Below the pieces are notes generated by a model, which did not search any database, was not told where the DNA came from, and saw only the letters and a program-made list of their open reading frames with translations. This document shows, one piece after another, positions 40,798 to 45,317 of a stretch of DNA of 64,000 nucleotides. The stretch's first letter is position 1. The number at the start of each line of letters is the position of its first letter. Position numbers and translations under genes: made by a program. Origin of the DNA: Pseudoxanthomonas kaohsiungensis (GTDB lineage: Bacteria; Pseudomonadota; Gammaproteobacteria; Xanthomonadales; Xanthomonadaceae); contig NZ_PDWO01000009.1 of assembly GCF_010211765.1 (NCBI RefSeq), positions 62,001 through 126,000 of the forward strand. Reading direction: 5' to 3'.

Positions 40798-40820
40798 GGG
40801 TATCCGGAATCTGGTGTGGG
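40798..40820 (+). repeat. left terminal inverted repeat of the mer transposon
   Basis: This 23-base end matches the reverse complement of 45295-45317 at 20 positions; the differences are at positions 12, 14 and 16. It starts GGGTATCCGGA and ends GTGTGGG. Confidence 0.9.
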
Positions 40821-40860
40821 TTTCAGGGTTTATGGCTGTTGTAGCTCTCATTTCAAAAGA

Positions 40861-40922
40861 CGGATTCTAGTGTTGGAACCGAGAACGAGCATGCTAAGCT
40901 AGAAACCGGATTTCAGTGTGGG
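40861..40922 (+). repeat. internal copies of the transposon end sequence
   Basis: Two further sequences resemble the terminal repeat: CGGATTCTAGTGTTGG at 40861-40876 and CCGGATTTCAGTGTGGG at 40906-40922, in the same orientation as the left end. They precede the transposase gene and may be extra transposase-binding sites or an older end. Confidence 0.6.
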
Positions 40923-40938
40923 CTCGCCCAGGTGTTGA

Positions 40939-42276
40939 GTGACCGATTTTCTGCAGTTGCGTAGCCTCAATACACTTGAAGTCGTAGGCGATGACGAGCG
41001 CTATGTCGTCAAGGCTGAAGGCGTTGCGCCAGTGGCAACCTGCCCGCTGTGCAAGGTCGGACGTTTGCACGGTCACGGCTCACAAGAGCAGTCGTTTCAG
41101 GATACGCCGACGCACGGCAAGCCGGTCGTGGTGTTCATCCAGCGCAGGCGATATCGCTGCATCTCGTGCAATAAGACGCTCTTCGAGCCTGTCGCCGATC
41201 TCGACAGCAAGCGTCAAGCCACGGCCCGCCTGGTGCGTTATATCCGTAAAGAGAGCTTCACCAAGACCTTCGCGGCGCTGGCGCGCGAAGTGGACTTGGA
41301 CGAGAAGACGGTCCGCCACGTCTTTGACGACTTCATCGAGGAGTTCGAGGCCAAGGTCCGGTTCCGGACGCCCCGCATCCTGGGGATCGACGAGCTCAAG
41401 ATCATCGGCCAGTACCGGGCGATGATCACCAACATCGAACGCAAGACGGTATTCGACCTCCGGCCGAGCCGGGCCAAGGCCGACCTGTTGCCCTATTTCC
41501 GCAACCTGCGGGACAAGGACACCATCGAGTGGGTGGCGATGGACATGTACCACGTTTACAAGCAGGTGGTGCGTGCCACGCTGCCGCAGGCGCGGATTGT
41601 GGTCGATCGTTTCCATATCCAGCGGATGGCCAATGACGCGCTGGAGAAGCTGCGCAAGCGCATTCGCAAGGATCTGCCGGCTCGGCAGCGCCTCAAGCTC
41701 AAGGATGAGCGCTTCCTGTTGCTCAAGCGGCAGCACGATCTGAAGGGCGCAGACATGACACGGGCCCTGGAATGGTTCCGCCAGTTTCCCCAGCTCGGGG
41801 AGGCGCACGCCCTCAAGGAAGGCTTCTTGTCGATCTGGGATCACAAGAGCCGTCCGGAGGCTGAAGCGGCATGCGCGACGTGGTTAGGCAACATTCCGCC
41901 GGAGCTGGCGGCCACGTTCAAGGATCTGACCACCGCCGTGCACAACTGGCACGACGAAATCTTCTCTTACTTCGAACAACCCATTACCAATGCCTATACT
42001 GAATCCGTCAACCGACTGGCCAAAGACATGAACCGCATGGGCAGGGGCTACAGCTTCGAGGTGATTCGGGCGCGGATGCTCTACAACGAGAAGGCGCGCA
42101 AGGACGGGGCCGTAGTCGAGACCGTAGATGTCGATGATGACCAGGTATCAACGAACTTCGAGTTCCAGCGAATGACGATGGCATCGATCCGCAAGAAGCA
42201 GGTCAGACGCGTGGTCGAATATGGACCTTACATTCCGACGTTGGTGCGGCTGCTCGAAGAGGGGTATTTCGAGTAA
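40939..42276 (+). CDS. tnpA: ISL3-family transposase
   Basis: The 445-residue protein (GTG start at 40939, MTDFLQLRSLN) is full length. An N-terminal zinc-binding region holds C35-C38 and C74-C77. A helix-turn-helix follows (LAREVDLDEKTVRHVFDDF). The DDE catalytic triad is D151 in GIDELK, D223 in VVDRFHIQRM and E355 in TNAYTESVNRL. It catalyses movement of the surrounding element. No frameshift or stop is seen, so it should be active. Confidence 0.95.
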   Translation: MTDFLQLRSLNTLEVVGDDERYVVKAEGVAPVATCPLCKVGRLHGHGSQEQSFQDTPTHGKPVVVFIQRRRYRCISCNKTLFEPVADLDSKRQATARLVRYIRKESFTKTFAALAREVDLDEKTVRHVFDDFIEEFEAKVRFRTPRILGIDELKIIGQYRAMITNIERKTVFDLRPSRAKADLLPYFRNLRDKDTIEWVAMDMYHVYKQVVRATLPQARIVVDRFHIQRMANDALEKLRKRIRKDLPARQRLKLKDERFLLLKRQHDLKGADMTRALEWFRQFPQLGEAHALKEGFLSIWDHKSRPEAEAACATWLGNIPPELAATFKDLTTAVHNWHDEIFSYFEQPITNAYTESVNRLAKDMNRMGRGYSFEVIRARMLYNEKARKDGAVVETVDVDDDQVSTNFEFQRMTMASIRKKQVRRVVEYGPYIPTLVRLLEEGYFE

Positions 42277-42370
42277 ACCTTGACCCATCGCACAAGCCCC
42301 GAAGCTTCAACCTGGGTGTTTGGCTCAACGGATGAAGCTGAGCATTTGGGCCTGAACGCTCAGCACAGCA

Positions 42371-44065
42371 CTACCCCGCGCAGCAGGACAGTTGCTTCAC
42401 ATCCGTGGTGAAAGTCTGCGCTGCGAGCTTCAGTCCCTCGACCATGGTCAGGTAAGGGAACAACTGGTCGGCCAGCTCCTGCACCGTCATCCGTGCCCGG
42501 ATGGCGAGCGCGGCCGTCTGAATCAGTTCGCCCGCCTCGGGGGTCACCGCCTGCACACCGAGCAACCGGCCAGTGCCGGCTTCCGCGACCAGCTTGATGA
42601 AGCCACGTGTGTCGAAGTTGACGAGCGCCCGGGGCACGTTGTCGAGTGTCAGCGTGCGGCTGTCGGTCTCGATGCCGGCATGGTGTGCTTCGGCTTCGCT
42701 ATAGCCCACGGTGGCGACCTGGGGATCGGTGAACACGACCGCCGGCATCGCCGTCAGGTCCAGCGCCGTGTCGCCGCCGGTCATGTTGACCGCGGCGCGG
42801 GTACCGGCCGCCGCTGCGACGTAGACGAACTGCGGCTGGTCGGTGCAGTCGCCCGCGGCGTAGATGTGCGGTGTGGCGGTGCGCATCCCATTGTCGATGA
42901 TGATGGCGCCCTGCGCGTTGACCGCGACACCTGCCGCGTCGAGATCCAAGGCGCGGGTGTTCGGTGTGCGGCCGGTGGCGACCAGCAGTCGGTCAGCGCG
43001 CAGTTCGCCGCGCCCGGTCGTGAGCACGAATGCTCCGCTTGCAAAGGCCACCTCACTGGCCTGCGTGTGCTCCAGCACTTCGATGCCTTCGTTGCGGAAC
43101 GCGGCCGTGACGGCTTCACCTATAGTGGGATCTTCGCGGAAGAACAGCGTGTTGCGCGCCAGGAGAGTCACCTTGCTGCCGAGTCGGGCAAAGGCCTGCG
43201 CGAGTTCGACCGCCACCACCGACGAACCGATCACCGCCAGCCGCTCGGGAATACGGTCGCTGACCAGCGCCTCGGTGGAGGTCCAGTAGGGGGTGCCCTG
43301 CAAGCCGGGGATCGGCGGAATCGCCGGGCTGGCGCCGGTGGCGATCAGGCAGCGGTCGAAGGCGACTGCGCATTCGCCGCCTTCTGCCAGTTGCACGTTC
43401 AGATGGCGGTCGTCCAGGAAGCGGGCGTCGCCGCGTAGCACGGTGATGGCGGGAGTGCTGGCCAGAATACCTTCGTACTTGGCGTGACGCAGTTCGTCGA
43501 CGCGCTCCTGCTGCTGCGCCAGCAAACGCTCGCGCAGGATCGCCGGCGAAGCGGCCGCAATGCCGTCGTCGAACGGACTCTCGCGCCGTACATGGGCGAT
43601 ATGCGCGGCACGGATCATGATCTTGGACGGTACGCAGCCGACATTGATGCAGGTACCGCCGAGGGTGCCTCGCTCGATCAAGGTGACGCGCGCTCCTTGC
43701 TCGACGGCTTTCAGCGCCGCCGCCATCGCCGCGCCGCCACTGCCAATCACAGCGACGTGCAATGCCGGCTCTGCATCTCCGCGCTTCGGCTCGCCGTTTA
43801 ACCCGCCCAGCGTCTTGTTCAACAGGTCCGCAGGCTTGCTCGGCCTGTCGGCAGCCTGCGCCCGGTAACCGAGTGCAGACACGGCGGCGACCAGCGGTGC
43901 CATCTCCAAATCGGCGCCCGCATCAGCCGTGATTTCAGCCCGCCGTTGCGGATAGGACACCGCTGCCGAACGCACACCGGGGACCTTCTCCAAAGCTTGC
44001 CGGACGTGCTCGGAGCACGCCCCGCAGGTCATGCCATCGACGTGCAGTGTGATCGCCTCGGTCAT
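42371..44065 (-). CDS. merA: mercury(II) reductase
   Basis: The 564-residue flavoenzyme reduces Hg(II) to volatile Hg(0) with NADPH in the cytoplasm. An N-terminal heavy-metal domain has GMTCGAC (C14, C17). The redox-active pair is C139 and C144 in [13 protein letters not shown]. The C-terminal mercury-delivery pair C561-C562 is in LSCCAG. FAD and NADPH motifs ([22 protein letters not shown]) are intact. It follows merP after seven bases and is the last gene of merTPA. Confidence 0.98.
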
Positions 44066-44713: not shown

Positions 44714-44748
44714 GAGGGTCTCCTTCCGGGACTTTGCGTGATGCGCTA

Positions 44749-44779
44749 ACGTTACTTCCGTAGCCAAGTACGGAGTCAA
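44749..44779 (-). promoter_or_regulatory. MerR-controlled mer promoter and operator
   Basis: On the minus strand TTGACT (-35, 44774-44779) and TAACGT (-10, 44749-44754) are separated by 19 bases, the overlong spacer that MerR corrects by twisting DNA when Hg(II) binds. The operator dyad TCCGTA/TACGGA (44757-44762 and 44769-44774) lies between them. The match to the classic Tn501 sequence is close. merR reads the opposite way from the same region. Confidence 0.93.
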
Positions 44780-44784
44780 GCGCC

Positions 44785-45246
44785 ATGATGAACATCCCGG
44801 AAACCCTGACCATCGGGGCCTTCGCCAAAGCAGCCGGGGTCAACGTGGAGACCATCCGGTTCTATCAGCGCAAGGGCTTGCTGCTGGAGCCGGATCGGCC
44901 CATCGGCGGCATCCGCCGCTATGGGCCGACGGACGTGGACCGGGTGAAGTTCGTGAAGTCCGCTCAGCGCTTGGGCTTCAATCTGGACGAGGTTGCGCAA
45001 TTGCTCAAGCTGGAGGACGGCACCCATTGCCACGAGTCCGCCGACCTCGCGGCAGCGCGGCTGGCGGATGTGCGCCTGCGGCTGGCCGATCTCCAGCGCA
45101 TGGAGTTGGCGCTATCCCAATTGGTCAAGGCATGCAGTTCGAGCCAAGGCAAGGTGACCTGCCCACTGATTGCTTCCTTGCACCGACATGCGCCAGCAGG
45201 AAAAACCCACACTGAAGGCTTGAAACGGACGAGCCTGCGAAACTAG
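44785..45246 (+). CDS. merR: mercury-responsive transcriptional regulator
   Basis: The 153-residue regulator has the winged helix-turn-helix ([20 protein letters not shown]) and all three Hg(II) ligands, C82, C117 and C126. The first of two adjacent ATG codons reproduces the numbering of the well-studied Tn501 MerR, so I use 44785. The C-terminal tail (about 135-153) is longer than usual and reaches toward the transposon end. It represses without mercury and activates merTPA with it. Confidence 0.96.
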
Positions 45247-45294
45247 AAACCTACAAGCAAGAACAGTCAGACAAGCAAGTGCTTTAGCTGTCGT

Positions 45295-45317
45295 CCCACA
45301 CTAAAATCCGGATACCC
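45295..45317 (-). repeat. right terminal inverted repeat of the mer transposon
   Basis: This end reads GGGTATCCGGA at the outer tip on the minus strand and matches 40798-40820 at 20 of 23 positions. Confidence 0.9.

Follow-up and report, generated by a model that had tools for sequence, protein, structure and literature searches.

An ISL3-family transposon, probably still mobile, with a narrow-spectrum mer operon as passenger in Pseudoxanthomonas kaohsiungensis

Tn3-type transposons are commonly regarded as the carriers of mercury resistance, and a stretch of Pseudoxanthomonas kaohsiungensis DNA in which a mer operon stands next to an ISL3-family transposase raises the question of whether the operon is carried by the ISL3 element or merely adjoins it. 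The stretch comprises 64,000 nucleotides (assembly GCF_010211765.1, contig NZ_PDWO01000009.1, positions 62,001 to 126,000; hereafter the window, numbered from its first letter). A sequence-only reading of this DNA had interpreted 40798-45317 as a complete ISL3-type transposon enclosing a mer operon, and our analysis supports that proposal: we are highly confident that these 4,520 bp are a single, probably still mobile ISL3-family transposon with a complete narrow-spectrum mer operon as its passenger. Its parts and immediate surroundings are as follows.

40790..40797, unstranded: left copy of the target duplication, AAAAAAAG, an exact match to the right copy
40798..40820, plus strand: left terminal inverted repeat GGGTATCCGGAATCTGGTGTGGG, 23 bp, containing box 1 GGAATCTGGTGTGGG at 40806
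40862..40876, plus strand: sub-terminal box 2 GGATTCTAGTGTTGG, mostly preserved in seven aligned left ends, the window counted
40908..40922, plus strand: sub-terminal box 3 GGATTTCAGTGTGGG, immediately upstream of tnpA
40939..42276, plus strand: tnpA, ISL3-family DDE transposase, 445 amino acids, GTG start, no internal stop, CPLC/CISC pairs
42371..44065, minus strand: merA, mercury(II) reductase, 564 amino acids, catalytic and metal-binding motifs including the C-terminal CC
44073..44351, minus strand: merP, periplasmic Hg(II)-binding protein, 92 amino acids counted from MKKF
44363..44713, minus strand: merT, Hg(II) transporter, 116 amino acids
44749..44779, minus strand: mer operator-promoter, TTGACT, a 19-bp spacer with a CCGTAC...TACGG dyad, TAACGT
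44785..45246, plus strand: merR, Hg(II)-responsive regulator, 153 amino acids, Cys 82/117/126
45206..45220, minus strand: right sub-terminal box AGCCTTCAGTGTGGG, read inward, differing from the motif at 4 positions
45295..45317, minus strand: right terminal inverted repeat GGGTATCCGGATTTTAGTGTGGG, read inward
45318..45325, unstranded: right copy of the target duplication, AAAAAAAG
45323..45351, minus strand: intrinsic-terminator-like hairpin 3' of a glycine-zipper gene (minus strand), its T tract being the duplicated target

The five genes fill the interior of the element. Direct comparison bears out that the ends are intact, the imperfect terminal inverted repeats (23 bp each) matching at 20 of 23 positions, and the same exact 8-bp duplication, AAAAAAAG, lies on both sides; short imperfect terminal inverted repeats and an 8-bp target duplication are traits of the ISL3 family. 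So too is an ISL3-type DDE transposase with a zinc ribbon and helix-turn-helix (HTH), which the element encodes. TnpA matches Pfam DDE_Tnp_ISL3 (PF01610) at 3.6e-59 and PF14690 at 9.2e-10, and scores 297 bits against the NCBIfam ISL3 equivalog NF033550, for which the cut-off is 180. The sequence-only reading had described this transposase as unbroken and as possessing the DDE triad. The first part stands, given an uninterrupted frame of 445 codons and the ISL3 models; the second is a putative assignment, as D151, D223 and E355 are invariant across nine aligned TnpAs together with 12 further acidic residues (15 in total), and these three would form the catalytic triad. Boxes related to GGATTYTAGTGTGGG occur on the left at 40806, 40862 and 40908 and on the right at 45309, with weaker right-hand boxes at 45251 and 45220 (4 mismatches each), and the three left boxes are found again in 7/7 aligned left ends (window counted). 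These boxes, sub-terminal boxes 2 and 3 among them, are candidate sites at which the transposase probably binds. In the mechanism that we propose, TnpA would attach to the terminal repeats as well as to the further copies of the box that lie inward of them, and an 8-base stagger in joining both ends to an A/T-run target would give the 8-bp duplication. A separate 23-bp repeat (87%) is present in direct orientation near both ends (40885-40907 and 45229-45251), and is not clearly retained in other lineages. A scan of 40500-45600 against Rfam gave zero matches at gathering scores.

That merR and merTPA lie within the same ends, as had been claimed, is confirmed by their coordinates and by the NCBIfam equivalogs: all four mer reading frames are open and each exceeds an equivalog cut-off, MerR passing TIGR02051 (166 vs 150.85). 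The layout is that of a narrow-spectrum operon, with merR divergent from merT-merP-merA and a 19-bp spacer in the operator-promoter, and none of merB, merC, merD or merE is among the five genes of the element. We take 44749-44779 to resemble the classical mer operator/promoter layout. The predicted outcome is mercury resistance by the route common to other mer operons, in which MerR would switch the divergent promoter, MerP and MerT would import Hg(II) and MerA would reduce Hg(II) to Hg(0). Cargo and right end overlap slightly because the last merR codons are written in the right-end repeat region; the frame continues into that region (45203-45246), which is why MerR has 153 amino acids here and 135 in the form annotated in the related 4,621-bp elements considered below. 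The closest MerA among phages is that of Salmonella phage SJ1, at 76.6% identity.

The evidence that these parts move together comes from copies at other sites. L. ruishenii (L050) has the whole element, both ends included, differing at 8 of 4,520 positions, which contradicts the possibility, raised in the sequence-only reading, that the ends belong to two different elements; the metagenome-assembled genome (MAG) 'Proteobacteria bacterium isolate Gammapro7' (L051) holds a copy with 7 mismatches in 4,520 bp. Both copies stand at sites other than that in the window, with both flanks present and their own 8-bp repeats. Counting insertions with up to 3 mismatches per end, and dropping ends with fewer than 20 bases of flank, so that L052, L055 and L061 contribute no site, we found 21 distinct two-ended insertions with the window included. 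An exact duplication of 8 bp flanks 17 of them and a 9-bp duplication flanks one more; the remaining three have none. Excluding the window, 17 of 20 have an exact duplication of 8-9 bp. Because unrelated sites in other bacteria hold copies that differ at just 7-8 positions over 4,520 bp, movement appears to have been recent, and we infer that the element moves as one unit and was recently mobile.

Some observations weigh against this interpretation. Three of the 21 two-ended sites (L068, L076 and L157) lack an exact 8-bp duplication, L157 matching at 7; our guess is that later rearrangement lies behind them. The ISL3 HTH model PF13542 falls slightly under its cut-off in TnpA (25.9 vs 27.4 bits), and MerR, which passes TIGR02051, scores below the cut-off of the subfamily model PRK13752 (215 vs 261). 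A promoter scan of 40600-45500 gave no sigma-70-like site, the mer promoter included, in a scan that permits no 19-bp spacer, the length found in the mer promoter.

If the element inserted as a unit, relatives would be expected to show the site without it, a comparison that the sequence-only reading had suggested. Seventeen genomes of the genus were searched, that of P. kaohsiungensis included, and loci were fetched from 13; in the unfetched genomes G060, G215 and G272 the flanks were far apart, on separate contigs or not found. Eleven of the 13 fetched congener loci align straight across the empty site as one piece (75-84% identity, with gaps), and in the remaining two (L099 and L100) the flanks are approximately 700 and 850 bp apart, separated by other sequence; no ISL3 ends were found in the two genomes concerned (G239 and G227). 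Relatives with mer at this position and without the ends, which had been named as a possible refutation, were not seen among these 13 loci. In the closest congener (L098), AAAAAGAAGGCCGGC...GCCGGCCTTC is continuous and the same hairpin is unbroken. The one-piece alignment and the intact hairpin indicate that the site was most likely empty formerly, with the hairpin present, and was then struck. In P. jiangsuensis the empty site and that genome's own copy of the element lie on different contigs. The insertion in the window lies between two chromosomal genes, where it would have entered an intrinsic terminator at its T tract, and because the duplication left a T tract next to the hairpin, this terminator should still work.

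The position of this insertion raises the further question of what the element recognizes as a target. Among the two-ended sites, 15/21 have at least six T in the 8-mer on one strand, and with the testable single-ended sites added the figure is 27/36; 8-mers with at least six T make up 0.054% per strand of a background sample (800 kb from 20 genomes holding such ends, 68.3% G+C), so that approximately 0.1% would be expected. The terminator tests omit the distant ends L081, L085, L121, L122, L125 and L140 and twelve single-ended flanks facing the A side, at least five of which seem to represent, from the opposite side, sites that are in the count; L145, also in the count, comes from a viral-contig record. 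Sites with at least six T exceeded unmatched control T tracts both for an adjoining hairpin (17/27 vs 163/400; p 0.020) and for an upstream fold of -15 kcal/mol or below (14/27 vs 71/400; p 0.00012), and the site in the window has a strong hairpin, as might be expected if the element specifically recognized intrinsic terminators as safe harbours, and not simply A/T runs. The control tracts are mostly 6-T and the insertion sites mostly 7-T, however, and matching for T count removes the significance: at seven T or more, hairpins adjoin 14/22 sites vs 35/60 controls (p 0.43) and folds 11/22 vs 24/60 (p 0.29), and the hairpin test stratified by T count gives p 0.17. The five 6-T sites alone stand out on fold (3/5 vs 47/340; p 0.023). 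As the terminator excess is not significant once T count is matched, the supported target rule is A/T runs, and specific recognition of terminators is unlikely, the small numbers leaving room for a modest preference. Insertions at terminators follow, at least in part, from the long T runs that often adjoin strong hairpins in these genomes. ISL3 elements with AT-rich 8-bp duplications are in print (PMC5559704; ISPst2a/b in PMC6305408, both from partial text), and in Enterococcus faecium a rearrangement that the authors link to an ISL3-family element has an 8-bp duplication inside a rRNA-operon terminator, according to the available portion of PMC11702846. A/T-run targets, often adjoining terminator hairpins in G+C-rich genomes, offer a testable reason why insertions are tolerated.

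The P. kaohsiungensis genome holds a single full copy, a pattern that could also arise if the unit were a fossil of one insertion, now immobile, that has spread with the chromosome or by homologous recombination. This is very unlikely given the copies with 7-8 differences at unrelated sites and the arrangement in genome G079 (apparently L. tolerans), where the element forms a separate 4,520-bp contig and two more right ends lie near contig ends, which suggests several copies. Other copies are consistent in sequence and less complete in context: that of L. tolerans (L052) has 10 mismatches in 4,520 bp on a contig consisting of the bare element without flanks, that of P. jiangsuensis has 6 mismatches in 4,237 with the left 283 bp absent near a contig end, and the MAG Lysobacterales bacterium 63-13 has a near-identical copy in two pieces with approximately 120 bp of tnpA missing.

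Arrival of mer with another vehicle, of Tn3/Tn21 type or an island, with the ISL3 element merely adjacent and the ends derived from different insertions, is scarcely credible: related mer operons without ISL3 are widespread (of four loci examined, the three annotated ones all lie near Tn3-family transposases and the fourth, in Tistrella, is without annotation), but at other sites the ends, tnpA and mer recur together as one 4,520-bp unit with duplications of its own, relatives can be aligned without a break across the empty site, and neither a resolvase nor a Tn3 transposase is among the five genes. A Tn3/Tn21 mer transposon has a Tn3 transposase, a resolvase, ends of approximately 38 bp and a 5-bp duplication, whereas the element in the window has an ISL3 transposase only, 23-bp ends and an 8-bp duplication. 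The Tn3-family mer transposons (of Tn21/Tn501 type, and Tn5053) thus have the same kind of mer operon with another transposase and other ends; at the three loci near Tn3-family transposases MerA is approximately 77% identical to that of the window, and merC, merD, merE and recombinase genes are variously present.

The preferred reading, of a single ISL3-family transposon with mer as passenger, leads to the question of how widely such elements occur. Among 297 Lysobacteraceae genomes, 10 (own included) match over 4,100 or more of the 4,520 bases, and 215 match some portion, many by short or mer pieces alone. The end pattern, with at most 2 mismatches, is present in 30/395 genomes of the family and 3/369 of the class (own included in both). 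The element is not rare in its bacterial family. None of 5,426 Escherichia coli genomes holds 80% of the left module, 113 having a partial match at 60-80%, and phage records contain no close TnpA (46 records, every one below 60% identity).

In a plasmid collection, at least 4 records contain 80% or more of the element, with 81-82% identity, and are annotated as ISStma11 family with mer genes; among the plasmid matches listed, three span the full 4,520 bases (81% identity) and one more spans 93% of them (82% identity). These ISStma11-family mer elements are found on plasmids of X. euvesicatoria (CP137537, NZ_CP137533 and NZ_CP137540) and Dyella (NZ_CP134868). They share with the element in the window the gene order (tnpA, merA, merP, merT, divergent merR) and the 23-bp ends, NZ_CP137533 being known from its match to the element alone, and 8-bp duplications were observed in CP137537 and NZ_CP134868. 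They differ in length (4,621 vs 4,520 bp) and in sequence, with TnpA 83%, MerA 83-84% and MerR 73% identical to those of the window, and the NZ_CP137540 copy (L008) is cut in merR beside the Tn3-family ISXc4. Isoforms of an insertion sequence share over 95% DNA identity; the element in the window, with 81-82% identity to the records annotated as ISStma11 family, falls below that level. Public annotation thus already includes an ISL3 element with mer, and the copy in the window adds a member, not a new type. We found no description of an ISL3 element with an internal merRTPA operon in the open literature, as represented mostly by the openings of abstracts. The accessible part of one report names ISStma11 beside merTPCA on a Salmonella plasmid and contains no statement that one element holds both (PMC11271444); ISStma11 is merely listed in the corresponding parts of PMC10267216 and PMC11103832.

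The 4,621-bp type extends beyond Lysobacteraceae to Thauera, Nevskia and other records. Records from Nevskia, Acetobacteraceae, Dyella and elsewhere (L016, L038, L056, L058, L059, L074 and L158) have the same sequence next to it, and from this common flank it probably travels there within a larger mobile element.

The sequence-only reading had pointed to ISPpu12 for comparison. The likeness as a passenger-gene ISL3 element is sound, as ISPpu12 too is built as a non-composite transposon in the accessible text of PMC4133298 and PMC4447125, although the nearest relatives found are the ISStma11-family mer elements. ISPpu12 is described there as carrying a lipoprotein signal peptidase, a heavy-metal antiporter and also a tnpR regulator, and merTPA is not named in those excerpts; the cargo in the window is merR, merT, merP and merA alone, with no tnpR, lspA or czcD-like gene. 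ISPst2a and ISPst2b, also of the ISL3 family, have inverted repeats starting GGGTATCCGGAAT, A/T-rich 8-bp duplications (TTTTTAAA and CAAAAAAG) and two passenger genes, but are 2,985 bp long and carry an ArsR-type regulator and a permease (PMC6305408, partial text). An enterococcal ISL3-like fosB transposon likewise has an ISL3-type transposase and a resistance gene within inverted repeats, with AT-rich 8-bp duplications, and differs in its length (2.5 kb), perfect 25-bp repeats, fosfomycin-resistance cargo and Gram-positive hosts, as given in the part of PMC5559704 available.

Comparison of cargoes among elements with such ends gives some indication of how mer came to be carried. Mer-bearing lineages comprise the 4,520-bp type, the 4,621-bp type, L055 (4,594 bp) and L073 (4,457 bp). 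No mer was found in the stretches examined of L041 (3,796 bp), which has a transglutaminase-like gene and two reading frames without a Pfam match, or of L163 (8,780 bp), which has an Lcl_C-domain protein and repeated long reading frames that look like IS256-type transposases. In a TnpA tree the mer-free L041 neighbours the TnpA of the window (support 91/93), and two other mer-free rows of the near group pair up (99/99). Grouping the mer-bearing transposases as one clade is rejected by the approximately unbiased (AU) test (p 0.0019), as is grouping the ISL3-borne MerAs (p 0.028), and a narrower MerA group without L055 and L073 survives the AU test (p 0.0547). A single ancestral capture of mer is rejected weakly, because the TnpA and MerA trees are small and the tested groups were named after the loci had been inspected. 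Between L063 and L067 identity is 100% (rounded) in the first 1,500 columns and in roughly the last 1,000 but 75-95% in the centre, as if homologous recombination had exchanged the cargo centre.

A second element of this kind appears to be present in the P. kaohsiungensis genome itself. Contig C13 (L043, 1-3282) encodes a second TnpA, 87% identical (83% in DNA); the left end there is perfect, and integron-type gene cassettes that include an aadA2-type gene come after the transposase; of a 1.8-kb cassette stretch, 53-54% matches the best plasmid records at 97-99%, and the stretch examined contains no mer. A right end that differs at one position is on contig C7 (L147, 3443-4510). Immediately outside these ends, C13 and C7 share the 8-bp sequence TTTTATTT, as expected of one duplication, and the two ends probably belong to one second element split by assembly.

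These patterns could reflect an exchangeable chassis of ISL3 ends and tnpA, onto which mer was loaded more than once, in which cargo centres were swapped by recombination and which carries other cargo (aadA2-type cassettes, a transglutaminase-like gene and an Lcl_C-domain protein), with settlement in T runs placing the cargo at low-harm sites. We offer this model tentatively, considering it a little less probable than its failure in one part or another. The main interest of the locus lies in this cargo-swapping chassis together with the target rule: the element family would be a smaller, resolvase-free vehicle that moves mer between Lysobacteraceae genera and that, in P. kaohsiungensis, probably moves further resistance cargo as well.

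Some relatives depart from the common structure. A distant ISL3 transposase (TnpA 45%) in a Bacillota MAG (L081, 94 and 4959) lies between two right-type ends with no mer match. The copies in Luteimonas marina (L044 and L066) contain approximately 7 kb of extra DNA and have merT split, and that in Zeimonas arvi (L077) has approximately 2 kb of extra DNA, with the tnpA match cut short.

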